NCBI GenBank assembly: GCA_903857255.1
Contig: CAIODY010000033.1
Location: forward strand, 1-37,550
From: an uncultured bacterium
GTDB taxonomy: Bacteria; Bacteroidota; Bacteroidia; Chitinophagales; CAIODY01
Length of the DNA: 37,550 nt
Direction of reading: 5' to 3'
In this document: one piece after another, positions 1-25,627 of the stretch
How positions within the stretch are numbered: the first letter of the stretch is position 1
Layout of the letters: every line of letters begins with the position of its first letter
Notes under the pieces: generated by a model
Told to the model about the DNA's origin: nothing
Seen by the model: the letters and a program-made list of their open reading frames with translations, nothing else
Database searches by the model: none
Program-made: the position numbers and the translations under genes

Positions 1-22
1 AGTTTTACGAAGCGATTAGTTC

Positions 23-145
23 TTATAAAGAACCTGCGCCCCACCATTCTCCAGCTTTAGTAGAAGTGGTAGTTGTACCGCCTTTTACTGTTGACATAGC
101 GTTGATGTTAATCAACTCTAACAATTGGATTGATGAATTTTTCAT
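23..145 (-). CDS. Small double-glycine leader peptide, RiPP/bacteriocin-like precursor (40 aa)
   Basis: This is a complete 40-codon reading frame, ATG at 145 to TAA at 23. The first 23 residues look like a Bacteroidota secretion leader: a Lys near the start, spaced hydrophobics (L8, L9, L11, I12, I14), then a V-K-G-G motif ending at G23. The predicted released part is 17 residues, Thr-rich at first and then A-G-E-W-W-G-A-G-S-L. It has no Cys, so a lanthionine product is unlikely. A near-consensus promoter lies 46 bases upstream. Double-glycine leaders of this type are normally cut by the C39 peptidase domain of a dedicated ABC exporter; none is in the window, but the gene points off its left edge. 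That it is a precursor peptide is inference from leader shape; the exact activity is unknown. A chance short frame remains possible, but the promoter and the GG position argue against it. Confidence 0.6.
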   Translation of the reverse strand: MKNSSIQLLELININAMSTVKGGTTTTSTKAGEWWGAGSL

Positions 146-191: not shown

Positions 192-223
192 CAAAGATAT
201 GTGTGGAAAAAGTGTGCCTACAA
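192..223 (-). promoter_or_regulatory. Bacteroidota-type promoter for the double-glycine peptide
   Basis: Read on the minus strand, TATCTTTG (199 to 192) matches the -7 consensus TAnnTTTG exactly, and a TTG (223 to 221) sits 21 bases upstream, within the usual spacing for the -33 element. Transcription would start near 185, leaving a leader of about 40 bases before the ATG at 145. Confidence 0.6.
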
Positions 224-7445: not shown

Positions 7446-7461
7446 TAAAAATATTTTTTTG

Positions 7462-8523
7462 ATGTCGAAAACAGCATGGATAATTATTTCAGCATTAGTA
7501 ATTGTAGTTGGAATAATTATTTACACAAAAGTTAGTTCCTCTAAAACTGCCGCCAACATTGCATCGGCGGCTAATGCGCCAAAAGAAATTAAAGTTGGAG
7601 CATTCATCGTTCATCCACAAAATATCGAAAACAATATTGCTGCTTCGGGCAGTTTGTTAGCTTTTGAAGATGTGGATTTGCATGCAGAAGTGTCAGGCAA
7701 AATTGTCCAATTAAATTTGAATGAAGGCACTGCTGTGGCAAAAGGCACTTTGCTCGTAAAATTATTTGATGATGATTTGCAAGCACAATTAAAAAAGTTG
7801 GATGTGCAAAAAACGAGTGCCGAAAAAACCGCCGACCGCTTGCGCCAATTGCTTTCCATCAATGGTGTTGGGCAGCAAGAATATGATGATGCACAAACAC
7901 AGGTAAAATCTATTCAAGCCGATATGGATAATATAAAAGCGCAAATTTCTAAAACAGAAATTCGTGCGCCATTTAATGGCATTGTCGGTTTGCGAAATGT
8001 GAGTATGGGTGCATATTTAACACAAAACACTGTGGTGGCTACTTTGCAGCAGATTGACCAAATGAAAATTGATTTTACCATTCCCGAAAAATATTCCACC
8101 ACAGTTACAAAAGGAAATGTTTTACAATTTACTGTGGATGGCAGAAATGAAAATTTCAACGCAAAAGTTTATGCCATCGAACCAAAAATTGATGAACAAA
8201 CTCGAACAATAAAAGTGAGAGCATTGGTTCAAAACACAACAGCCAAGCTGCTTCCGGGCATGTATGCCAAAGTGGATGTGGGTTTAAAAAATATTGAGAA
8301 CGCATTGATGGTGCCTACACAATGTATCATTCCTGATGCAAGAAATAAAAAAGTAGTGGTGGTAAAAAATGGTATCGGCACATTTGTAAAAGTGGAAACT
8401 GGATTAAGAAATGAAGCGATGATTCAAATTACGAAAGGCGTTGAAATAGCCGATACCATTGTATCTACAGGTATTATGTTTGTGAAACCAAATGCAAAAT
8501 TGAAAGTCACTTCCATCCAATAA
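7462..8523 (+). CDS. RND efflux periplasmic adaptor (HlyD/AcrA family)
   Basis: A 353-residue membrane-fusion protein. The ATG at 7462 is chosen over an adjacent in-frame TTG at 7459. An N-terminal helix (about 4-22) anchors it in the inner membrane. It then shows the standard order: lipoyl half (about 65-90, with A-E-V-S-G-K-I-V-Q-L), a coiled-coil hairpin (about 95-160), the second lipoyl half (I-R-A-P-F-N-G-I-V-G), a beta-barrel with R-T-I-K-V-R-A and L-L-P-G-M-Y-A-K-V, and a membrane-proximal domain. It should connect the permease downstream to the outer-membrane channel, and it is the first gene of a three-gene unit. There are 12 bases to the permease start. No linked regulator is seen, so control is unknown. 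Confidence 0.93.
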   Translation: MSKTAWIIISALVIVVGIIIYTKVSSSKTAANIASAANAPKEIKVGAFIVHPQNIENNIAASGSLLAFEDVDLHAEVSGKIVQLNLNEGTAVAKGTLLVKLFDDDLQAQLKKLDVQKTSAEKTADRLRQLLSINGVGQQEYDDAQTQVKSIQADMDNIKAQISKTEIRAPFNGIVGLRNVSMGAYLTQNTVVATLQQIDQMKIDFTIPEKYSTTVTKGNVLQFTVDGRNENFNAKVYAIEPKIDEQTRTIKVRALVQNTTAKLLPGMYAKVDVGLKNIENALMVPTQCIIPDARNKKVVVVKNGIGTFVKVETGLRNEAMIQITKGVEIADTIVSTGIMFVKPNAKLKVTSIQ

Positions 8524-8535
8524 TCAAACAAAAAA

Positions 8536-11500
8536 ATGAGTTTATCTTCTCTTAGTTTGAAACGACCAGTGATGGCAATTGTATTGAACATCATCTTGGT
8601 TTTGTTTGGCGTTATCGGTTTTAAATTTTTGGGTGTTCGCGAATATCCTTCGATAGACCCACCAACCATCACGGTTGCAACGGGTTACAAAGGTGCAAAT
8701 GCGGATGTCATCGAATCGCAAATTACCGAACCACTTGAAAAAGCGATTAATGGAATTGAAGGAATCAGAACTATTTCATCTGCCAGTAATCTCGGCACAA
8801 GCGTTATCACTGTTGAGTTTACAGTTGACCACGATTTAGAATCAGCCGCCAACGATGTAAGGGACAAGGTTTCGCAGGCTGTGAAATTATTGCCCCAAGA
8901 TATTGATGCGCCGCCAGTGGTTACAAAAGCGGATGCTAACAGCGATGCCATTATTTCTATGACGGTTCGTAGCGACACAAAAAATGTGTTGGAACTTGAT
9001 GATTACGCCGAAAATGTGTTGTTGGATAGATTGCAAACCATACCGGGTGTGAGCAGTGTGCAAGTGTGGGGTCAGAAAAAATACGCCATGCGCTTATGGA
9101 TTGACCCGATGAAATTAGCCGCTTACAAACTGGCTTTCAGCGATATTCAAAATGCGTTGAACAACGAAAATGTTGAATTACCTGCTGGAAAAATTGATGG
9201 AAAAAATACCGAGTTGCTGATAAAAACTTTTGGCAGATTAACCACCGAAGATGATTTTAATAACCTGATTATTAAATCAACCAGTTCGCAAATCATTCGC
9301 TTGAAAGATGTAGCCACAGCGGTTTTAGGACCAGAAATAATTCAAACAACGATTAAACAATCAGGAATTCCGATGGTGGCTTTGGCATTGGTGCCGCAGC
9401 CTGGTTCTAATTATATTGAGATTGCAAAAGAGTTTTACAAACGCTATGATGCCATTCAAAAAGAAGTGCCCAAAGACATTCAATTAAACATTGCATTAGA
9501 TAATACAAAGTTTGTGAAACGCTCGTTGGAAGAGGTGGGCGAAACATTGGGTATCGCATTTTTACTCGTTATCATCATCATCTTTTTGTTTTTTAGAAAT
9601 TGGATGATTGCCATTCGACCGTTGATTGATATTCCTGTTTCGTTGATTGCCACCTTCTTTATCATGTACTTGGCTGGTTTTAGTATCAACATTTTAACAT
9701 TGCTGGCAATAGTGCTGGCAACGGGTTTGGTGGTAGATGATGGTATTGTGGTAACCGAAAATATTTTCAAAAAATTAGAAAAAGGTTTGAACAAACATGA
9801 TGCAGCCGAACAAGGCAGCAACGAAATTTTCTTTGCTGTTATCGCCACTTCAATTACGCTTGCGATTGTGTTTTTACCAGTGATATTTTTACAAGGATTT
9901 GTTGGAAGATTGTTCCGTGAGTTTGGTGTCGTGGTCGCAGCAGCAGTGTTAATTTCGGCATTTGTATCCTTAACCTTAACACCAGTTTTGAATGTGTTAT
10001 TAACTTCAAAAAACACATCGCATGGTTGGTTTTATAACAAGACCGAACCATTTTATGTTTGGTTAGATAATGCTTATCGAAGGTTACTACAACGCTTTAT
10101 GCGTAAGCGTTTTTCGGCATTTCCAATCATCGGTGTTTGTATTGTGTTAATCATTTTGTTTTTCAATTTGCTACCATCCGAATTGGCACCGATGGAAGAC
10201 AGAAGTTTGTTTCGCATGACGGTGATTGCGCCAGAAGGTACTTCGTATGATTACATGGAAAACTACATGGATAAAATCACAACTTTTGTTGCTGATTCTG
10301 TTCCCGAAAATCGTTTGTTGATGACCATTGTTGCGCCTTCATTTGCAGGAAGTGGTGCAGTAAATTCTGGAATAATTCGTGTGGCTTTGGTCGAACCAAC
10401 CGACCGCAAACGCAGTCAGAAAAAGATTGTAGAGTCGTTGAGCAAAAATTTATCGAAGCTCAATCAAGGAAAAGTTTTTGCCATTCAGGAGCAAACAATT
10501 TCGGTAGGAACGGCGGCAAAAGTTTCATTACCTGTGCAATTTGTTTTGCAAAATAGCGACTTTGAAAAACTAAGAACTACACTTCCAAAATTTTTAGAAG
10601 AGGCAAACAAGAGTAAAATTTTTGGCGCAGTGGATGTGAATTTAAAATTCAATAAACCCGAATTGCAAATTACGATTGACCGTGCAAAAGCAGCAGAGAT
10701 AGGCGTTTCAATGGCTGACATTGCTCAAACTTTACAATTTGCTTTAAGCGAAGGACGGCTTGGATATTTTATTATGAATGGGAAACAATATCAAGTTATC
10801 GGGCAAGTGGATAGAGAAGACCGTGATAAACCCTTGGATTTAGCGGCTTACACGGTGCGAAGCAAAAATGGTGATTTGGTGCAATTGGATAATTTAGTAA
10901 CGATGGTAGAGCAAAGTAATCCACCACAATTGTATCACTTCAATCGTTATAAATCAGCTACAGTATCGGCTTCGCTGGCTCCAGGCAAAACAATTGGCGA
11001 CGGCATCAACGAAATGAATCGTATTGCGAAGAAAACTTTAGACCCAACTTTTACCACTTCATTAAATGGCGCATCGAGAGATTTTTCTGAAAGTTCATCC
11101 AACACTTCATTCGCATTTATTTTGGCGTTGGTGTTAATTTTCTTGGTGTTGGCGGCGCAGTTTGAAAGTTTCATCGACCCGTTAATCATCATGATTACAG
11201 TGCCTTTGGCGATTGCAGGTGCATTATTGAGTTTATGGTTATTTGGTCAAACGCTAAATATTTTTTCAGAAATTGGTATCATCATGTTGATTGGATTAGT
11301 AACAAAAAATGGAATTTTAATTGTTGAATTTGCCAATCAAAAACGGGAAGCTGGCGAAGAAAAAATAGAAGCTGTAATTGATGCCGCAGCCTCACGTTTG
11401 CGACCAATTTTGATGACGACGCTAGCAACTGCATTAGGCGCATTGCCCATCGCATTAGCCTTAGGAAGTGGCGCACAGAGCCGTGTTCCATTGGGTATTG

Positions 11501-11598
11501 TGATTATCGGTGGTTTGTTGTTTTCATTAATTCTCACCTTGTTTGTTATTCCTGCGATGTATTCTTTCATGTCAAGAACTAAGAAAAAAAATGCGTAA
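8536..11598 (+). CDS. RND efflux transporter permease (AcrB/HAE1 family)
   Basis: A 1020-residue inner-membrane proton-driven pump, full length for the AcrB group. It opens with the usual first helix (L-K-R-P-V-M-A-I-V-L-N), followed by the porter domain (V-R-E-Y-P-S-I-D-P-P). Helix 4 carries adjacent Asp401-Asp402 in the G-L-V-V-D-D-G-I-V-V-T-E-N context, the proton-relay pair equivalent to AcrB D407/D408. The second half repeats the pattern: a large periplasmic loop (about 550-840), then helices with F-V-L-A-A-Q-F-E-S-F-type sequence and G-L-V-T-K-N-G-I-L-I-V-E-F. The GLVVDDGIVV form places it with hydrophobic/amphiphilic (HAE1) exporters and not with heavy-metal pumps. Its stop overlaps the start of the channel gene by 8 bases (ATGCGTAA). 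Substrates cannot be predicted. Confidence 0.95.
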   Translation: MSLSSLSLKRPVMAIVLNIILVLFGVIGFKFLGVREYPSIDPPTITVATGYKGANADVIESQITEPLEKAINGIEGIRTISSASNLGTSVITVEFTVDHDLESAANDVRDKVSQAVKLLPQDIDAPPVVTKADANSDAIISMTVRSDTKNVLELDDYAENVLLDRLQTIPGVSSVQVWGQKKYAMRLWIDPMKLAAYKLAFSDIQNALNNENVELPAGKIDGKNTELLIKTFGRLTTEDDFNNLIIKSTSSQIIRLKDVATAVLGPEIIQTTIKQSGIPMVALALVPQPGSNYIEIAKEFYKRYDAIQKEVPKDIQLNIALDNTKFVKRSLEEVGETLGIAFLLVIIIIFLFFRNWMIAIRPLIDIPVSLIATFFIMYLAGFSINILTLLAIVLATGLVVDDGIVVTENIFKKLEKGLNKHDAAEQGSNEIFFAVIATSITLAIVFLPVIFLQGFVGRLFREFGVVVAAAVLISAFVSLTLTPVLNVLLTSKNTSHGWFYNKTEPFYVWLDNAYRRLLQRFMRKRFSAFPIIGVCIVLIILFFNLLPSELAPMEDRSLFRMTVIAPEGTSYDYMENYMDKITTFVADSVPENRLLMTIVAPSFAGSGAVNSGIIRVALVEPTDRKRSQKKIVESLSKNLSKLNQGKVFAIQEQTISVGTAAKVSLPVQFVLQNSDFEKLRTTLPKFLEEANKSKIFGAVDVNLKFNKPELQITIDRAKAAEIGVSMADIAQTLQFALSEGRLGYFIMNGKQYQVIGQVDREDRDKPLDLAAYTVRSKNGDLVQLDNLVTMVEQSNPPQLYHFNRYKSATVSASLAPGKTIGDGINEMNRIAKKTLDPTFTTSLNGASRDFSESSSNTSFAFILALVLIFLVLAAQFESFIDPLIIMITVPLAIAGALLSLWLFGQTLNIFSEIGIIMLIGLVTKNGILIVEFANQKREAGEEKIEAVIDAAASRLRPILMTTLATALGALPIALALGSGAQSRVPLGIVIIGGLLFSLILTLFVIPAMYSFMSRTKKKNA

Positions 11599-12892
11599 AA
11601 TTTTCAAAATAATTATACTGATTTTAATTGCATCACCTGTATTTTCACAAGATGTACTCACCTTGAATCAGGCTGTGGAATTGGCTTTGAAGAACAATTA
11701 TGATATTGCGATTTTAAAAAACAAAGCGGAAATTGCCAGCATCAACAGCGATGCGACTGTTGCCAACTTCTTGCCCAAAGCAGGTTTGAGCTTGGCACAA
11801 AGTGCATCACTCAACAATTTGCATCAGCAACTTTCCAATGGAAGTGAAACGAAAAAAAATGGCGTAACAGGCAGCAACATCAATCCAGCATTGAATGTAA
11901 CCTGGACATTATTTGATGGCATGAAAATGTTTGCCACACAAAACAAATTAAAACGTGTGAAAGAAGTGGGCGAATTAAATTATCAAGACACGATACAAAC
12001 TATGGTGGCGTCAGCCATCACAGCCTATTTTGATGTAGTGAGTGCCAAGCAACAATTAAACGCATTGAACGATGCGATTAAAATTTCGGACGAAAGAGTG
12101 AAGCTGGCAGAAAAACAATTTCAGGTTGGTTATTCTTCAAAGGTAGATTGGTTGCAGGCTCGAGTAGATTTGAACGAACAAAAAAGTTTAATCATCAATC
12201 AAACAAAATTGATTGAACAAAAAAAAGCAGAGCTCAATCGCATTTTAGCACGTGCGCCAGAAACAAATTTTGAAACGACTGATTCAATTCCGTTTAATGA
12301 TGAGTTGAGTAAAATTACTGCCACAGAATTAGACTATAGAAATTTGCAAATGAAAGTGGCTGCAAAAAATGTCGAAGTGCAACGCTTTGCACGAAAAGAA
12401 ATTTTCTCCAACTACTTGCCACAATTAGCTATTGGCGGCAGTTACGGCTATAACCAAACAAAAAATAGTGCAGGTTTTACGTTGCTTAATCAATCACAAG
12501 GATTTAGTGAAGCGTTGAGTTTGAATGTTCCTTTGTTCAATGGAACGCTAACAAGAAAACAAGTGAAAGTGGCTGATATCAACGTGTTGAACGCCGAAAC
12601 TACTTACAATAAAATTCACTTGCTCACCAAAGTAAAATATTTCAAAGCGCAAAAAGATTACGAAAAAGCAGTGGAATCATTAAATTTGGAAGAAGAAAAT
12701 ATTTTGTTGGTAAAAGAAAATTTAGCCATTGCCACCGACCGCTATCGGCTTAGAGAAAGCACTGCTATTGAGTTGCGTCAAGCCGAGCAAAGTTATACCG
12801 ATGCGTTTACCAGATTAGTAACTGCACGATTTGCAGCCAAATCTGCTGAAACAGAATTATTAAGATTGATGGGCATATTGGTGAAAAACTAA
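11591..12892 (+). CDS. TolC-family outer-membrane efflux channel
   Basis: A 433-residue outer-membrane factor. The ATG at 11591 gives a clean signal peptide (M-R-K-I-F-K then a hydrophobic core, F-S-Q near residue 20); a longer reading from 11543 would add 16 residues lying within the permease gene. The mature start, L-T-L-N-Q-A-V-E-L-A-L-K-N-N, is the canonical TolC-family opening, repeated in the second half by long alpha-helical segments (K-I-S-D-E-R-V-K-L-A-E-K-Q-F-Q-V-G and L-A-I-A-T-D-R-Y-R-L-R). It should form the trimeric exit duct for the preceding adaptor and permease. The ATGCGTAA overlap with the permease suggests translational coupling. It ends the operon; a poly-T stretch follows without a clear hairpin. 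Confidence 0.93.
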   Translation: MRKIFKIIILILIASPVFSQDVLTLNQAVELALKNNYDIAILKNKAEIASINSDATVANFLPKAGLSLAQSASLNNLHQQLSNGSETKKNGVTGSNINPALNVTWTLFDGMKMFATQNKLKRVKEVGELNYQDTIQTMVASAITAYFDVVSAKQQLNALNDAIKISDERVKLAEKQFQVGYSSKVDWLQARVDLNEQKSLIINQTKLIEQKKAELNRILARAPETNFETTDSIPFNDELSKITATELDYRNLQMKVAAKNVEVQRFARKEIFSNYLPQLAIGGSYGYNQTKNSAGFTLLNQSQGFSEALSLNVPLFNGTLTRKQVKVADINVLNAETTYNKIHLLTKVKYFKAQKDYEKAVESLNLEEENILLVKENLAIATDRYRLRESTAIELRQAEQSYTDAFTRLVTARFAAKSAETELLRLMGILVKN

Positions 12893-17083: not shown

Positions 17084-20000
17084 TTGTTCATCATTCTTAT
17101 AGCGCTAAGCAGCATCACTGCTGCATTTACGTTATGGATTAGTCGCCCATCAACGCAAGCATGGTTGATACAAAAAACAACAAAAATATTGAGTGAACAA
17201 TTGAAGGCAGAAGTACACATTGGCAAAATTGATGCTGCTTTATTTCAAAAATTAATCTTGACTGATGTTTTGTTGAAGGACAAAAAAAATGACACTTTGC
17301 TTTTTGCACATCAATTATCACTAAGATTGACTGATGTTTTTTTACTAAAAAAAAATACTACATTAAGCTATATCGGATTCGATGGCGTTGTATTAAATGC
17401 TCACAAACTCAATAACGATAGCACTTTCAACTATCAATTTATTGTAGATGCCTTTTCTTCCAAATCAACAAAACAAGATTCATTGCATTGGAAATTGAAT
17501 TTCAGAATTGTTGAACTCGACAATATTGCATTGAATTACAACAACGAAGAAAAAGAAATTTTGCATGCTTCGCTGAAACATTTAAAGTTGAATATTGATG
17601 AATTGAATTTGAATAAAAAAATCTTAAATATTCATTCGTTGGAGATAGAAGAACCCAAAATTAATTTCAGCAAAAATGAAACTTTAGCAATAAAAAAAAC
17701 AACACAAATTGATTCTTCAAAAAATGGAACAACCCATAAAACATTTGACTGGAAAGTGTTTGCAGCTGATATTATTATTCGAGATGGAAACTTGACTTAT
17801 TGTTTGCAGCAAAATGATTCTACTCATTTCACTGAAAAACAATTCAACCCAAATGATTTTAAAATGGATGAAATCAATTTGAATGCACATGAAATTACTT
17901 TCAATCAAAATGATTTTATGGCTCAAATCAAAGAATTATCATTGAAAGAAAAATGCGGATTGCAATTAACCGCAGCAACAAATATCCATTTCCAAAACAA
18001 CACTTTACGACTCAAAAACCTTTTACTGACAACGCCTTTCAGCAATTTGCATGAAAACATCGAAATCAGTTTTGCAAAAAATAAAAAGGTAACGCTTGAA
18101 AATATTTCGTTCAATACCAAAATAAAAAGTAGCAGTTTTCACCCAAAAGATATTGAACATTTTGTAATAATTCCAACTTGGTTAAAGCCTGTAAACTTGG
18201 TTGGAGAACTGAAAGGGACACTTGCCAACTTGCGAAGTAAAGATGTAGAACTAACCATGGGCAACACTTTTTTCAAAGGTGAATTTGCAGTAACAGGTTT
18301 GCCCGATGTAAAAAACACTTTCATTGATTTCAAAGCTCAACAATTGTCATCAACCGGAAATGAAATTGCTAGCGACTTACCTGAAACCAAGCATCCAGAG
18401 CTATTGCAGCGCATGGGCGATTTATTTTTCACAGGTTCGTTCAATGGTTTTTTGAATGATTTTGTGGCAGAAGGAAAATTGAAAACTTCACTTGGTGATG
18501 TGAACTCAGATGTGAATATGAAAATCAGCAAGGACGAAAAATTGAGCTACAGTGGCTCTATTGCTGCTATTCAGTTCGATTTAGGAAAACTAACACAAGA
18601 TTCGTTGCTCGGAAAAATTTCCATTTCAGCCGATGTGAATGGAAAAGATTGGCTCAATCAAAACCCAGAAGTGAATGTGCAAGGCACTTTGCAGCAATTG
18701 GGCTATAACAATTATAATTATCAGAACATTGAATTGAATGGCTTATTTAAACAAAAACAATTTGATGGAAGCATCACTTCAACAGACCCAAATTTGAACT
18801 TTAGTTTTAAAGGTTCGGTAAATTTGAATGATTCATTGCCACGTTTTAATTTCAATTCGATTGTGCATAGTGTTGATTTGCAAAAATTAAATTTTTCTAA
18901 AAATGAATTCTGCATTTCGAGTGGAACCATTAATATCAATGCATTTGGCAACAATATTGACAATTTTTCTGGCGCACTTTCGGTTGATAATTTTCAATTT
19001 AATGTGCAACACAAAAACCATACGCTGAAAGAAATCAATTTAACTTCAACTAATACAAATGATGGCAAAAAATTAAAATTGCAAAGCGATTTTGTGGATT
19101 TAATGGTGGCTGGGGAATTTAATTATTCTGAATTGCCTATTGTTTTTCAGAATTTTCTGAATCAATATTTCCCAACTTACGTAAAAGCAAATGCTGAAAA
19201 AAACTATGCCCAACAGCGTTTTAATTTTAGCTGTACTATTAATGATAAAGAAAATTTATTGCCTTTACTGATTCCAAACTTTACATTAAAAGGCAACAAC
19301 ACAATTAATGGCTCGTTCAATTCTACCGATTCAAAAATGGCTCTGAAAGCCAATTTGAACGAATTAGATTGGAATGGAAAAACAGTAACACCTTTGACCA
19401 TTTTATTGGAAAGTAATTCTGAAAAATTGCTTGGCGATTTAGCTGCGAATAATTTATTGGTGAATGACAGCTTTAATATTCATGATTCGAAATTGCATTT
19501 TATTGCCAAGCACGATAGTTTGAATTTTGATTATGGCATGAAAGGAGATACTTCGGAATTTGCTTTTAATTTCAAAGGATTATCAACCATGCAACCAGAA
19601 AGCATTACAACACATTTTTCGCAATCAGATATTTTTGTAAAAGGCTATCATTGGTTGTTGCAAAAATCGAACGAAATCATTTTCACAAAAAGTTATTTTG
19701 ATTTGAAAGACGTTGAATTGACGAGTGGCGAACAAAAAATTGACATCAATTCTTTTGACGAAAATGAAAAGCATGATAATTTAAAAATCAATTTTTCAAA
19801 AGTAAAATTGGTAGAATTGATGACAATGTTAGGCGCTAAAAATGCTGATTTATCAGGCACTTTGAATGCTTCATCTACTTTAAAAAATTACAATTCAGAT
19901 TTAGCATTTGAAAGCAATATTGACTTTAAAAATTGCTTTGTGGGTAAAAATTTATTGGGCGATATTAATGGCAAAATCACTTTTCAAAATTCTGTACAAA

Positions 20001-21766
20001 AAATATTTAGCGATATTGAAATTCAACAAGATGACAATTCGGCGCATGTTTCAGGGTTTTATAATTTAAGTGATAGCACCAATTGCTTGAATTATTCGAT
20101 GGCTTTAAAAAGCTTCAACATTAATACCATTGAGCCTTTGATTAACGATATTCTTTCGCACAAACACGGAAATTTGAGTGGAACAATCGCATTAAATGGC
20201 AGCCCGAAACACCCGAAAATAGCCGCCGAAGTTGATTTGCGAAATGGTGGTGCATCTGTGAACTATTTGAATACACACTATGAATTTGATGATTTACATG
20301 CCATTTGCAAAAACAATATTTTGGTGTTTGATAAATTCAATATCCGCGATTCGTTCAATAATCCTGCGGCTTTCACGGGCAATATTGATTTGAATAACAT
20401 ACATCGTGTGTTGCTCGATTTGCATATTAATGCACCAAAATTATTGGTGATGAATACCGACATTACACAAAACAATATTTTTTTTGGCAAAGCTTATGCT
20501 GCTGGAATCATTGATATCACTGGTGTTACGTACAATTTAACCATTGCTGCAAAAGCAAAAACTTTGAAAGGCACTTCAGTAAATATTCCAATTACTGATG
20601 ACCGAGATATCAGCAAACATGATTTCATTCAATTTGAAACAAACACAAAAGATTCAACAAAAAACAAAAAAGATTATGTGGTTGATTTGGATGGAATCAA
20701 TTTAAAATTCGACATTGAAACCACAGCTGATGCAGAAGTGAATATCTTGATGGATTTGGTTTCGGGCGATTATATCAAAGGCAGAGGCAAAGGCGACATC
20801 AAGGTGGAATTCAGTACCAATAAGGCTTTTGGAATGTATGGCAATTACACCATGGAACGTGGCGAATATTATTTTACCTTGTTTAGCATACCGAAAAACT
20901 TCACCATTAACAATGGTAGCACCATCACTTGGGATGGCGATGCGTACAACGGAACATTAGATGTGGTGGGTACTTACGTAACTCGTGCAGCATTTTCAGA
21001 TTTAATTCCTGACCAAAAAGAAGAGGCTGCAAAAGCAAAAAACAAAGTGCCAGTGCAAGTGAAAATGATGCTGAAAGGCTCATTGAAAAAACCAGATATT
21101 GCATTTGATATTTCCCCAACCGACAATTCATCTACTGCCATAAATTTTACTGCGCTGCAACGTTTGCAAACTATTAAGACCGACCCGAATGAGTTGAATA
21201 ATCAAGTATTTGCGCTGTTAGCGATGAATAGTTTTATTGCTCCGCAAAATGTTGCTGGCTTCGATAATGCACTCACTTATAATTCAACTTACAAACAATC
21301 AGCTACTGATTTAGCTTCTACACAAGTAACTCGATTGCTCAACAATGCATTTTATAGAATTACAAAAGATGATAAAACGCAACTGAATTTGAATTACCGC
21401 TTGTACGACCAACAAAGCACTGATGTTGCAACGGCGCAAAGAAACCTTTCCCAATTTAATGTGAGCATCACCAAAAGATTTTTGAATGACCGCTTAACCG
21501 TTGATGTTGGCGGCGTTTACGATTATGGCGCAGTGAACATCAACAATAACAATGGTTTGTTTGGAGATTTCAATATTGAATATAATTTAACGAATGATGG
21601 TACTTTTAAAATAAGAGGTTTCAGGAAAACTGAATACGATGTTTTGTATGAAAGAAACAGAAACAGAACAGGAATTGGCTTGGCTTACAAAAAAGAATTT
21701 AATCATTTGGGCGAATTATTTTTGAGCAATAAGAAAAAGGAAAAACAAACTTTGAAGCAGCAATAA
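17084..21766 (+). CDS. tamB: TamB-like translocation and assembly module protein (DUF490)
   Basis: A very large (about 1560-residue) envelope protein. One N-terminal transmembrane anchor is followed by a long array of short amphipathic beta-strands and a C-terminal DUF490/TamB region (about 1150-1480; for example G-N-Y-T-M-E-R-G-E-Y-Y-F-T-L and I-T-W-D-G-D-A-Y-N-G-T-L-D). TamB-type proteins bridge the periplasm with a hydrophobic groove, aiding outer-membrane protein assembly and probably phospholipid transfer. The first conventional start is TTG at 17084, but the frame is open upstream to 17051 and encodes a natural-looking K-K-F-L-K-I-L run before it, so the true N-terminus is probably up to 11 residues longer and may use a rare ATA (17063) or ATT codon. 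No TamA-type partner is adjacent. It probably shares a transcript with the TonB receptor and the phosphatase. Confidence 0.85.
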   Translation: MFIILIALSSITAAFTLWISRPSTQAWLIQKTTKILSEQLKAEVHIGKIDAALFQKLILTDVLLKDKKNDTLLFAHQLSLRLTDVFLLKKNTTLSYIGFDGVVLNAHKLNNDSTFNYQFIVDAFSSKSTKQDSLHWKLNFRIVELDNIALNYNNEEKEILHASLKHLKLNIDELNLNKKILNIHSLEIEEPKINFSKNETLAIKKTTQIDSSKNGTTHKTFDWKVFAADIIIRDGNLTYCLQQNDSTHFTEKQFNPNDFKMDEINLNAHEITFNQNDFMAQIKELSLKEKCGLQLTAATNIHFQNNTLRLKNLLLTTPFSNLHENIEISFAKNKKVTLENISFNTKIKSSSFHPKDIEHFVIIPTWLKPVNLVGELKGTLANLRSKDVELTMGNTFFKGEFAVTGLPDVKNTFIDFKAQQLSSTGNEIASDLPETKHPELLQRMGDLFFTGSFNGFLNDFVAEGKLKTSLGDVNSDVNMKISKDEKLSYSGSIAAIQFDLGKLTQDSLLGKISISADVNGKDWLNQNPEVNVQGTLQQLGYNNYNYQNIELNGLFKQKQFDGSITSTDPNLNFSFKGSVNLNDSLPRFNFNSIVHSVDLQKLNFSKNEFCISSGTININAFGNNIDNFSGALSVDNFQFNVQHKNHTLKEINLTSTNTNDGKKLKLQSDFVDLMVAGEFNYSELPIVFQNFLNQYFPTYVKANAEKNYAQQRFNFSCTINDKENLLPLLIPNFTLKGNNTINGSFNSTDSKMALKANLNELDWNGKTVTPLTILLESNSEKLLGDLAANNLLVNDSFNIHDSKLHFIAKHDSLNFDYGMKGDTSEFAFNFKGLSTMQPESITTHFSQSDIFVKGYHWLLQKSNEIIFTKSYFDLKDVELTSGEQKIDINSFDENEKHDNLKINFSKVKLVELMTMLGAKNADLSGTLNASSTLKNYNSDLAFESNIDFKNCFVGKNLLGDINGKITFQNSVQKIFSDIEIQQDDNSAHVSGFYNLSDSTNCLNYSMALKSFNINTIEPLINDILSHKHGNLSGTIALNGSPKHPKIAAEVDLRNGGASVNYLNTHYEFDDLHAICKNNILVFDKFNIRDSFNNPAAFTGNIDLNNIHRVLLDLHINAPKLLVMNTDITQNNIFFGKAYAAGIIDITGVTYNLTIAAKAKTLKGTSVNIPITDDRDISKHDFIQFETNTKDSTKNKKDYVVDLDGINLKFDIETTADAEVNILMDLVSGDYIKGRGKGDIKVEFSTNKAFGMYGNYTMERGEYYFTLFSIPKNFTINNGSTITWDGDAYNGTLDVVGTYVTRAAFSDLIPDQKEEAAKAKNKVPVQVKMMLKGSLKKPDIAFDISPTDNSSTAINFTALQRLQTIKTDPNELNNQVFALLAMNSFIAPQNVAGFDNALTYNSTYKQSATDLASTQVTRLLNNAFYRITKDDKTQLNLNYRLYDQQSTDVATAQRNLSQFNVSITKRFLNDRLTVDVGGVYDYGAVNINNNNGLFGDFNIEYNLTNDGTFKIRGFRKTEYDVLYERNRNRTGIGLAYKKEFNHLGELFLSNKKKEKQTLKQQ

Positions 21767-21771
21767 AAATT

Positions 21772-22989
21772 ATGGCAGACAATCAAATAGCAGGAAAATT
21801 ATTACAATCGAAACAGTTGCAAATTGATTCGTTGCTGGCTTTAACTCGTGCCATTAACAACAATACAAAAGAGCATGAATTGTATGAACTGTATGAATTG
21901 TTTTTGCGAAATCAAATGCACGTTGGCGAAGTGATTTTGTATTATCATCGCGATTTGTGGGAGTGTGTTTTTCATTTTGGAATTGAAAAAGTTTATCCAA
22001 CTTATTTAGTAGAACATCAATTTATTTACAACAAAGAATTACGAAATTTAGAAGAAAAACCAATTGAGCAAATTGAAAATTTCAATTACTTAATTCCAGT
22101 ATTTCATAAAGAACAACCGTTAGCTTTTGCATTAATTAGTAAAGTGAATGCTGATGAATATGGCACGAAAGAAGAGAAACTAAAATTCATTCAAACCATT
22201 ACCAACATTATCATTTCAGCCATCGAAAACAAAAGATTGTTTAAGAAACAATTGGTGCAACAAGCTTATAAAAAAGAAATGGATTTGGCTCGGCAAATGC
22301 AAAAATTATTAATCCCTGCAAAGCTGCCACAAACTGAAAATGTAAAGATGAGTGCGGTGTATTTACCACACACCGAAGTAGGCGGCGATTATTATGATTT
22401 TGTGGAACTGAATGAAGGAAAAATTACTTTTTGCATTGCTGATGTTTCGGGCAAAGGTGTGCCAGCAGCGTTGTTGATGAGTAATTTCCAAGCCACTTTG
22501 CGAACGCTTGCTCAACAAAATTACACCACTGAAAAATTGATAAAAGCATTAAATGCAAGGATGTGTGAAGTAACCCAAAACGAAAGTTTTATCACACTTT
22601 TTTATGCAAAATACAATGCCGTTTCAAAAAAATTATTGTACGTCAACGCTGGGCACGTACCACCGTTTTTATGCAACAGCAAAGGCATTCAGCCTTTAAC
22701 TGATGGTACTACTTTGTTGGGCATGTTCAATGATTTGCCACATATAAAAGTGGGCGAAATTTATTTAGAAGAAGAATCAACTTTAGTTTTATTTACTGAT
22801 GGTTTAACTGATTTATTGAACGAACAAGATGAATTTTTTGATGTAGAAGGAGTGGAATTATTTTGCAAAAATTTTTACACATTAAACCCTGAAGATTTTA
22901 ATAATAAAATTTTAGAACGGTTGAATTCGTTTAAAGGAACCCGACAAAACACTGATGACGTAACAATTTTAACTTGTAAGTTGAAATAA
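21772..22989 (+). CDS. GAF-like/SpoIIE-type PPM serine phosphatase
   Basis: A 405-residue soluble regulator. Residues about 20-160 resemble a GAF sensor domain, and a linking helix runs from about 160 to 185. The catalytic PPM (RsbU/SpoIIE-type) domain then shows L-A-R-Q-M-Q-K-L-L-I-P, metal-binding Asp206 in G-G-D-Y-Y-D-F, Asp224 in A-D-V-S-G-K-G-V-P-A-A, Asp343 in L-F-T-D-G-L-T-D, and Asp395-Asp396 in N-T-D-D-V-T. The metal ligands are intact, so it should be active. Such enzymes dephosphorylate anti-sigma-factor antagonists in partner-switching pathways; no STAS antagonist or HATPase anti-sigma gene is visible here, so its target lies elsewhere. It starts 5 bases after the TamB-like gene and probably belongs to that transcript. 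Confidence 0.9.
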   Translation: MADNQIAGKLLQSKQLQIDSLLALTRAINNNTKEHELYELYELFLRNQMHVGEVILYYHRDLWECVFHFGIEKVYPTYLVEHQFIYNKELRNLEEKPIEQIENFNYLIPVFHKEQPLAFALISKVNADEYGTKEEKLKFIQTITNIIISAIENKRLFKKQLVQQAYKKEMDLARQMQKLLIPAKLPQTENVKMSAVYLPHTEVGGDYYDFVELNEGKITFCIADVSGKGVPAALLMSNFQATLRTLAQQNYTTEKLIKALNARMCEVTQNESFITLFYAKYNAVSKKLLYVNAGHVPPFLCNSKGIQPLTDGTTLLGMFNDLPHIKVGEIYLEEESTLVLFTDGLTDLLNEQDEFFDVEGVELFCKNFYTLNPEDFNNKILERLNSFKGTRQNTDDVTILTCKLK

Positions 22990-23028: not shown

Positions 23029-24051
23029 GTGAAAAAATGGCTCTTAAATATTTTAGTTTTCCTATTGTTTTGGATGCAAAATTCCAAAGCGCAGGATGTT
23101 CATTTTAGTCAGTATTTTACTTTGCCAATGCTCACCAATCCAGCTTATGCAGGCATTCACAACGAATCAAAAATTGGTTTGATTTATCGAAATCAATACA
23201 ACGCATTACCTTCGTCTTACATTTCTTATGGCGTTTGTTATGATGCGTATTCGCCCAAACTGCACGGTGGTATTGGGTTAGAAGTGGTAAAAGATGATGT
23301 AGGCAATGGAATTTTACAAAATCAACATGCAGCTTTTTCGTATGCTTATCAAAATGCCATCACAAAAAAAATTGCATTTAGTTTTGGTATGGAAGCCATT
23401 TGCAATTTCAACACCATCAATGTTTCGAAAATTGTAGTTTATGATATGCTTAGTCAGCAGACTGGTGATGTAATTCAATCATTACAGAATGTTGAAAATT
23501 TCAATTCAGCCACTTCAAAAATATTTATGGATGTGAATGCTGGCGGCGTAATTTTTAATGATAATTTTTATGCAGGATTTGGCATAACACATTTAGCAAA
23601 GCCCGATGATGCTTGGGTTGGCAGCCATATTGTGCCAATGCTTTTAAATTTGCAAGCTGGTTATTTGTTTCGCCCTAAAGATGTAAAAAAGCGAAATGAT
23701 ACTTGGTATTTTTCACCCAATATTTATTATTTGAATCAACAAAATATGCATGAGATTAATTTCACCGCATTAGCAGGATTAGGAAATGCACAAGCTGGAA
23801 TTGGCTACCGAAATGCCAGCAATGGTGATGCAATGATTTTTCATTTAGCATTTTTAAATGGAATTTTCCGAATCGGGTACAGTTATGATTTCAATATTTC
23901 TACAAAATATTTTTCACCCCGAAATGCTCATGAAATAAGCATTCAGTACATTTTCAAACGAAAAAAAAGAACTACTGGTGAAAATGATTGGAGCATTAAT
24001 GAAACAAATAACAAAAACCATCGTATAAAATGCCCTAATTTCTTTAGATAA
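23029..24051 (+). CDS. Type IX secretion membrane protein, PorP/SprF family
   Basis: A 340-residue outer-membrane protein. It starts with GTG at 23029 (G-T-G then K-K-W-L-L-N), giving a signal peptide cut near A-Q at residue 22. The mature N-terminus D-V-H-F-S-Q-Y-F-T-L-P-M-L-T-N-P-A-Y-A-G is diagnostic of PorP/SprF proteins, in which the Q-Y-F.....N-P-A-x-x-G motif precedes a beta-barrel. These proteins take part in type IX secretion and gliding, often anchoring surface adhesins or PorE-type peptidoglycan linkers. It lies 39 bases after the phosphatase and 76 bases before the gldJ-like gene, a sensible pairing. The C-terminus ends in a charged tail (K-R-K-K-R-T-T-G-E-N-D-W) beyond the barrel. 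Confidence 0.9.
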   Translation: MKKWLLNILVFLLFWMQNSKAQDVHFSQYFTLPMLTNPAYAGIHNESKIGLIYRNQYNALPSSYISYGVCYDAYSPKLHGGIGLEVVKDDVGNGILQNQHAAFSYAYQNAITKKIAFSFGMEAICNFNTINVSKIVVYDMLSQQTGDVIQSLQNVENFNSATSKIFMDVNAGGVIFNDNFYAGFGITHLAKPDDAWVGSHIVPMLLNLQAGYLFRPKDVKKRNDTWYFSPNIYYLNQQNMHEINFTALAGLGNAQAGIGYRNASNGDAMIFHLAFLNGIFRIGYSYDFNISTKYFSPRNAHEISIQYIFKRKKRTTGENDWSINETNNKNHRIKCPNFFR

Positions 24052-24068
24052 TTTTAAGAAAAGACCAT

Positions 24069-24076
24069 TATATTTG
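24069..24076 (+). promoter_or_regulatory. -7 element of the gldJ-like gene
   Basis: TATATTTG is a perfect TAnnTTTG match, 51 bases before the ATG at 24128. Upstream TTTA (24043-24046, spacer 22) is one mismatch from the -33 TTTG. The predicted leader is about 45 bases. Confidence 0.5.
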
Positions 24077-24127
24077 CCCGAATAGAATTTAATCATCAAT
24101 AAAAATCTCTTAACTAAAATTTTAGTC

Positions 24128-25627
24128 ATGAAATTTAATTTCAAATTGCTTTTTCCAGTTGCTGCATCTGCTTTGTTAGCTTCTTGTTCAGGTGGAAACG
24201 GCTCAACTGGTGCCGAAAAAGAATCGAGCTCAACAGGCTGGAGTTATAACGACCCTAAATGGGGGGGGTTTGAAGACCATGCTTATGAAGGGCAAGAAAC
24301 TGGTCCAGGCTTGGTTTTCATCGAAGGCGGCGCATTCACTATGGGTGCAGTTGAACAAGATGTAACAATGGATTACAACAATGTGCCAAGAACAGTTACG
24401 GTTTCATCATTTTATATGGATGAATGTGAAGTTTCAAACAAACAATATCGTGAATACTTATGGTGGTTGCAACATACCTACTCTGAATATCCAGCAGTAA
24501 TGTTAAAAGCTTTGCCCGATACTTTGGTTTGGCGTAATAAATTATCTTATAACGAACCTTATGTAGAAAATTATTTCCGTCACCCTGCTTATAAAGATTA
24601 TCCAGTAGTGGGTGTAAATTGGTTGCAGTCAGTTGATTTTGCTAAATGGAGAGGTAATAGAGTGAATGAGTTTATTTTAATTCGTGATGGTGTATTAGAC
24701 CACAGCCAAGCAACTTCTGCTGAAAATTTTCAGTCAGAAACTTATTTGTATGGGCAATATCAAGGAACAGTTAAGAAAAATAGAAAAGATTTCACAAGTA
24801 CTGATGGAAAAGGCGAAAGACCAGTACGTTTAGAAGATGGTGTACTTTTACCCGATTATCGTTTACCTACAGAAGCTGAATGGGAATATGCAGCCTTATC
24901 AAATATTGGTAACAATCCAGCAGCTGGTGAAGAAAACGATTTGCACCGCAAAATTTACACTTGGAATGGCTATGGTTTAAGAAGTTCGGGGGCAGGTGGT
25001 GAACAATGGCATGGTGCCATGTTAGCTAACTTCAAACGTGGAAGAGGTGATTTGATGGGAACTTCAGGTGGATTGAATGACGGTGCTGATTATACTGCAC
25101 CTGTAAAATCTTTCATGCCAAATGATTTCGGTTTGTATGATATGGCTGGAAATGTGAGCGAATGGACAATGGATGTTTATCGACCAATGTCGCCATTTGA
25201 TGTAAATGATGAAAACTCATTTCGTGGTAACGTTTATCAAACAAAAATGAAAAAAGAAGATGGTACCATTGAAGATAGAGATTCATTAGGCAGAGTGCGT
25301 TATAGAGCAGTTAGCGATAGCGAATTATTGACTCGTAGAAATTATCGCCGTGGTGATAACATCAATGTAAATGACGGCGATGATGCATCAGGCAGAAATG
25401 GTCAATATTCTTATGGCGTTTCATCTTTGATTAATAACCATACTCGTGTTTATAAAGGTGGCTCATGGGCTGATAGAGCTTATATGTTAGCACCTGGCAC
25501 ACGTAGATTCTTAGAAGAAGACCAAGCTACTGCTACTATTGGTTTCCGTTGTGCAATGGCTCGTTTGGGTAGCCCTGAAGGCAACAAATATCAAGCCGGT
25601 AAATCATTCCGTAGTAATAAGAAATAG
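24128..25627 (+). CDS. gldJ: GldJ-like type IX secretion/gliding lipoprotein (FGE-sulfatase fold)
   Basis: A 499-residue lipoprotein. The signal sequence ends in L-L-A-S-C with lipid-modified Cys20. The body is a formylglycine-generating-enzyme-like fold: G-L-V-F-I-E-G-G-A-F-T-M-G at about 58-70, then F-Y-M-D-E-C-E-V-S-N, Y-R-L-P-T-E-A-E-W-E-Y-A-A, D-M-A-G-N-V-S-E-W-T-M-D, G-G-S-W-A-D-R-A and a terminal I-G-F-R-C-A-M-A-R. GldJ and GldK share this fold; the T-G-P-G-L-V-F-I-E-G-G opening with D-Y-N-N-V-P-R-T-V fits GldJ better, and no gldL, gldM or gldN follows as would be expected for gldK. GldJ is needed for the type IX secretion core. A run of eight G (24261-24268) interrupts an otherwise AT-rich start. 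A strong terminator follows. Confidence 0.78.
   Translation: MKFNFKLLFPVAASALLASCSGGNGSTGAEKESSSTGWSYNDPKWGGFEDHAYEGQETGPGLVFIEGGAFTMGAVEQDVTMDYNNVPRTVTVSSFYMDECEVSNKQYREYLWWLQHTYSEYPAVMLKALPDTLVWRNKLSYNEPYVENYFRHPAYKDYPVVGVNWLQSVDFAKWRGNRVNEFILIRDGVLDHSQATSAENFQSETYLYGQYQGTVKKNRKDFTSTDGKGERPVRLEDGVLLPDYRLPTEAEWEYAALSNIGNNPAAGEENDLHRKIYTWNGYGLRSSGAGGEQWHGAMLANFKRGRGDLMGTSGGLNDGADYTAPVKSFMPNDFGLYDMAGNVSEWTMDVYRPMSPFDVNDENSFRGNVYQTKMKKEDGTIEDRDSLGRVRYRAVSDSELLTRRNYRRGDNINVNDGDDASGRNGQYSYGVSSLINNHTRVYKGGSWADRAYMLAPGTRRFLEEDQATATIGFRCAMARLGSPEGNKYQAGKSFRSNKK

Follow-up and report, generated by a model that had tools for sequence, protein, structure and literature searches.

A double-glycine peptide array beside a TPR-histidine kinase gene in Bacteroidota: a candidate peptide-signalling locus

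A double-glycine peptide gene and its promoter

The window analysed here, 37,550 nucleotides from an uncultured member of the Chitinophagales, is the entire contig C33 of an assembly of 134 contigs, so its position 1 marks a genuine end of the contig and an assembly break. At this edge lies P1 (23..145, minus strand), which heads a tandem array of double-glycine precursor peptide genes. It runs over 40 codons from an ATG at 145 to a TAA at 23 and encodes the 40-aa product MKNSSIQLLELININAMSTVKGG / TTTTSTKAGEWWGAGSL, in which a 23-aa leader ending in VKGG (77..145, minus strand) precedes a predicted exported part, TTTTSTKAGEWWGAGSL, of 17 residues (26..76, minus strand) that features a Trp pair and no Cys. 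The first-pass annotation had described the gene, its leader and its tail in just these terms, though without naming the strand. V, M, I and L occupy positions -4, -7, -12 and -15 ahead of the double glycine at -2/-1, an arrangement of hydrophobic residues that is classical for leaders processed by C39 peptidases. Equivalent hydrophobic residues are present in all family copies from four relatives, of which G001 and G002 belong to the same genus as the window genome (G000), and G003 and G004 to a sister genus.

When a loose double-glycine leader expression was applied to the small ATG-initiated ORFs of the window, 3 of 121 matched, so this motif alone is weak evidence for a gene. Comparison with the nearest orthologue, P1 of G001, showed five synonymous and no nonsynonymous changes across the 17 leader codons up to the double glycine, and one synonymous and no nonsynonymous change across nine tail codons. 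This pattern looks like that of a translated gene under purifying selection, and the synonymous-only divergence, together with tandem paralogues in G001 and G002, ruled out a chance ORF. Homologous leaders and intact frames were found in close relatives, where the earlier annotation had proposed to look for them. Judged from its sequence, P1 is a real double-glycine precursor gene that was overlooked by annotation, as had been suspected. Searches of the P1-family precursors against Pfam and NCBIfam precursor models, a comparison that had also been suggested, returned no match.

A Bacteroidota-type promoter, TTG-N21-TATCTTTG (192..223, minus strand), precedes the P1 ATG by 46 nt, which bears out the prediction that the gene has its own promoter. 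The exact pattern TTG-N21-TAnnTTTG occurs only once more on either strand of the window, and the same signal is found ahead of the orthologous peptide genes in G001, G003 and G004. Between the peptide gene and a divergent kinase gene, positions 265-280 hold a palindrome-like sequence (CTACGAAAT..TCGTA), and the corresponding intergenic region in the sister genus (L033:5455-5482) contains an inverted repeat that resembles it but is longer (ATTAACTACGAAAA/TTTACGTAGTTAAT). These palindromes are suggestive of a possible operator. Farther along, the window encodes a TamB-like protein of 1560 aa (17084-21766), followed by a SpoIIE-phosphatase-domain protein (21772-22989), and then a PorP/SprF-like protein and an FGE-sulfatase-domain protein (23029-25627) that resemble type IX secretion or gliding components.

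A tandem array across contig breaks

Contig C54, from the same assembly, carries a second copy of the peptide gene right at its edge, where positions 2-119 are identical to window positions 18..135 (minus strand). These 118 identical bases of a tandem copy are sufficient to break a short-read assembly, which explains the break at position 1. Downstream of the C54 copy there is a 14-bp perfect inverted repeat plus T, followed by a convergent clpP. The complete locus is available from G001, a Chitinophagales metagenome-assembled genome (MAG), in which a leftward TPR kinase gene is followed by P1, P2 and P3 (43, 45 and 71 aa, all rightward), a terminator and a convergent clpP. The same type of neighbour, clpP, thus lies past the far end of the array in both genomes, and the order in the window genome is most probably that of G001, with C33 and C54 representing the two flanks and possibly further copies between them. 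The earlier expectation that any further precursors would lie beyond position 1 was therefore supported, whereas its counterpart for maturation and export genes was not, as the array leads to a terminator and the convergent clpP.

The G002 locus likewise lies at a contig break, where the terminal part of one copy precedes a 73-aa copy (L013:6428-6756 in G002:C485), making this the second MAG with a contig that ends inside such an array. Double-glycine peptide arrays of this sort therefore seem to break assemblies systematically, and they hide at the contig breaks of metagenome assemblies. Among the paralogues, the leader and the C-terminal part are conserved, while the middle segment varies in length from about 8 to 38 residues. 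Every peptide of the G001 array shares the GEWWGAGSL C-terminus of P1, and the complete G002 copy ends in GEWWGGGAL instead. The locus is found in two related genera of apparently freshwater Bacteroidota, where the isolate name points to a freshwater origin for G001.

The divergent TPR-histidine kinase and its sister-genus counterparts

The gene divergent from P1 (312..2549, plus strand) encodes a 745-aa protein with eight TPRs, HisKA and HATPase domains and a receiver. No hydrophobic membrane segment was found in this protein, which is predicted to be soluble. This kinase is the likely partner of the peptide array and the main clue to its function; the first-pass annotation had correctly read the leader as C39-type, but had missed both the array and the kinase. 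Peptide gene and TPR kinase gene are divergent neighbours in G000, G001, G003 and G004, so that in each of these genomes a propeptide gene adjoins a putative receptor gene, as in RRNPP systems. The TPR region was predicted as a continuous full solenoid (pLDDT 93.7), for which LGN was the best structural match (Z about 31). The model also aligned along its whole length with RapI (Z 26.8, 331 residues) and NprR (Z 25.8, 318 residues), both of which act in bacteria as short-peptide receptors. Many ligands are bound by TPR folds, and this modelled likeness would not by itself establish function. A reading of the kinase as part of a defence system was dropped, since PADLOC gave only a marginal TPR match.

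In the sister genus, the orthologous kinase is 41% identical to the window kinase and is again divergent from a double-glycine peptide gene, whose leader reads MQNHxPxAMLKVLSPEQMSTIKGGF... The peptide core contains two copies of DINDTVAAGK (G003) or DINETVMAGK (G004), giving the consensus DIN[DE]TV[AM]AGK, and ends in SFIDTVAAF; it is unrelated in sequence to the cores of the GEWWGAGSL genus. The two genera therefore multiply their product motifs differently, the window genus through tandem genes and the sister genus through internal repeats. Directly 3' of the peptide gene, both sister-genus genomes encode another TPR-histidine kinase, likewise soluble, along with a response regulator of the LytTR type (L033:5900-8415; L034:2467-4961). 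The position of clpP also differs: in the sister genus it adjoins the kinase, in the window genus the far end of the array.

Comparison of G003 with G004 revealed an uneven divergence of the two kinases. In the first kinase, the TPR region is 67% identical and the kinase-receiver part 97%, while in the second most of the TPR region is only about 17-32% identical and the kinase region 83-97%. Neighbouring genes are 88-100% identical (LytTR regulator 89%, clpP 100%, lepA 98%). No such gap was seen, at similar levels of kinase identity, between homologues of another family that lack such peptides, where TPR and kinase identities were 100/99, 88/84 and 74/78%, and between G000 and G001, whose peptide tail is unchanged, the TPR region is 98% identical. 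Pherotype loci of the agr/ComQXPA type feature a membrane sensor domain, and the divergence of the TPR region beside a constant kinase in G003 and G004 resembles such loci in that peptide and sensor apparently vary together while the kinase core remains constant; here, however, the sensor would be a soluble TPR domain rather than a membrane domain. The TPR differences between these two genomes are segmental, falling in TPR1-2 and TPR4B-6. Clustering on the concave groove was rejected, as the groove-lining A helices carry differences at 33 of 136 positions and the B helices at 49 of 120. Recombination or drift could therefore explain the TPR differences between G003 and G004.

Export, alternatives and proposed function

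The window genome encodes a single C39-peptidase ABC transporter (727 aa) on contig C71, followed by a HlyD-type adaptor and a small membrane-like protein. The export genes that had been expected beyond position 1 thus lie on another contig, and no modifying enzyme was found with them: neither the exporter of the window genome nor its orthologues in the four relatives have a precursor or modifying enzyme nearby. Exactly one C39 exporter is present in each of G000-G004, unlinked to the peptide locus, and a leader-only model gave strong matches in these genomes solely at that locus. G005, a family member that is 89% complete, has neither a C39 exporter nor a match to the peptides, such that exporter and peptide co-occur one-to-one across six genomes (G000-G005), a small number. 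This co-occurrence, which is the sole link to the exporter, and the leader pattern suggest that the peptides are likely to be exported by the unlinked C39 system, with predicted cleavage after the double glycine. The window also encodes a HlyD-like adaptor, an AcrB-type RND pump and a TolC-like outer-membrane channel in a row (7459-12892), and this channel could serve as an outlet for the unlinked C39/HlyD exporter.

The locus shares features with several known systems. With C39-processed double-glycine peptides, such as the ComC/BlpC pheromones and class II bacteriocins, it has in common the leader pattern, the short ORF and a genomic C39 ABC exporter with HlyD, but here the exporter is unlinked, there is no immunity gene and the precursors match no NCBIfam or Pfam model. 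As in RRNPP systems (Rap/NprR/PlcR/PrgX/Rgg), a propeptide gene lies directly beside that of a putative cytoplasmic TPR receptor whose solenoid aligns with RapI and NprR. In contrast to RRNPP systems, the TPR domain is fused to a histidine kinase and receiver, the peptide has a double-glycine leader where those carry a Sec or PptAB signal, the genes are divergent, the host is a Gram-negative member of the Bacteroidota and the ligand is putative. RRNPP receptors are defined as cytoplasmic TPR proteins of 250-500 aa (PMC10075063), and the present protein has TPRs and no membrane segment but reaches 745 aa with its kinase and receiver. By analogy with RRNPP receptors, the peptide would be predicted to bind in the TPR groove. 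Some Bacteroidales PCAT/RiPP clusters also have TPR or histidine kinase genes near their precursors (PMC10352776); these clusters resemble the locus in their double-glycine leaders, C39 exporter and nearby TPR or two-component genes, but carry radical-SAM or other tailoring enzymes and mostly linked exporters, neither of which was found at this locus.

Peptide signalling with unlinked C39 export is the best reading of the locus, although we place no more than even confidence in it. It draws on the gene, the array, the promoter, the leader pattern, the exporter co-occurrence, the pairing in two genera and the TPR divergence in the sister genus. The promoter-driven array would produce double-glycine precursors for the one C39-peptidase ABC transporter of the genome, which is encoded away from the locus and, together with its HlyD adaptor, would cut the leaders and export the peptides. 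Their conserved C-terminus (GEWWGAGSL, or the DIN[DE]TV[AM]AGK repeats and FIDTVAAF end of the sister genus) would be the signal, amplified by dosage, by which the cytoplasmic TPR-histidine kinase-receiver is modulated through its TPR solenoid, comparable to Rap/NprR-type receptors, and phosphotransfer would presumably provide the output. The peptide might meet the TPR domain either after re-uptake or as a cytosolic pool before export. The persistence of the divergent pairing despite only 41% kinase identity and unrelated cores would support signalling. Against it stand the predicted cytoplasmic location of both kinases, the best fold match of the model being LGN rather than a pheromone receptor, and a pairing known from four genomes of one family.

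A Cys-free, microcin-like array of class II-type bacteriocins, exported by C39 to act on competitors while the kinase just regulates production, is rather unlikely. Such peptides typically have double-glycine leaders and C39 exporters, and the precursors here are likewise tandem and diversifying, but the complete G001 locus contains no immunity-type gene anywhere between the kinase gene and clpP, the cores are very short (17-21 residues) and without net charge, the tail is invariant among paralogues, and peptides and sensor domains apparently vary together in the sister genus. We consider it improbable that these are RiPP precursors which an enzyme from another locus modifies, for example on Trp or Thr, ahead of C39 export. 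The Trp pair is conserved, the core is rich in Thr/Ser and PCAT exporters in Bacteroidales commonly serve RiPPs (PMC10352776); however, no modifying enzyme was found near the array or the exporters, in a search that covered SPASM radical-SAM enzymes rather than ATP-grasp, YcaO or non-SPASM radical-SAM ones, and the cores have no Cys and differ wholly between the genera. A dedicated SPASM partner was rejected, as the only such radical-SAM gene of the window genome adjoins a MiaB/RimO-like gene rather than a precursor or exporter, and SPASM genes are also found in G005, a genome without the peptides. Thioether rings need a core Cys, so the absence of Cys from every family member excludes lanthipeptides, in agreement with the earlier judgement.

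It is more doubtful still that kinase and array are neighbours with no functional link and that the peptides belong to an orphan family of exported products. Few genomes are involved, and the presence of both clpP and the kinase as neighbours means that the segment could be passively conserved, but the orientation and shared intergenic region have outlasted the divergence of kinases and cores, clpP has a different position in each genus, and the TPR divergence in the sister genus is abnormal.

The signalling locus proposed here appears to be confined to a narrow group. Among 398 genomes of the order, the g1 peptide model found no distant homologues outside its own genus, and a contig scan for this family matched only two same-genus genomes. 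The g2 model gave, apart from G002, weak matches only, mostly inside long frames. No clear further case of the kinase/peptide pairing was found beyond the family in the same 398 genomes; nine more distant TPR-kinases have no double-glycine peptide beside them, and those of another family (874-902 aa) no convincing one. Genetically encoded peptide quorum sensing has been described mainly in Gram-positive bacteria. A published large-scale survey of TPR-receptor/propeptide pairs was restricted to genomes of Firmicutes and viruses (PMC10075063), and a literature search that covered few subscription journals found no description of a double-glycine peptide paired with a TPR kinase in Bacteroidetes.

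Tentatively, and with a little less confidence than for signalling itself, we propose that in these Gram-negative Bacteroidota cytoplasmic TPR-histidine kinases read double-glycine peptides, which leave the cell through C39 transporters and are multiplied by tandem genes or internal repeats, and that the sensor domains of these kinases diversify together with the peptide in a pherotype-like manner. If true, this locus would provide a concrete, testable candidate for peptide communication in Bacteroidota, and many TPR-kinases of this phylum would deserve to be checked for unannotated peptide genes beside them.
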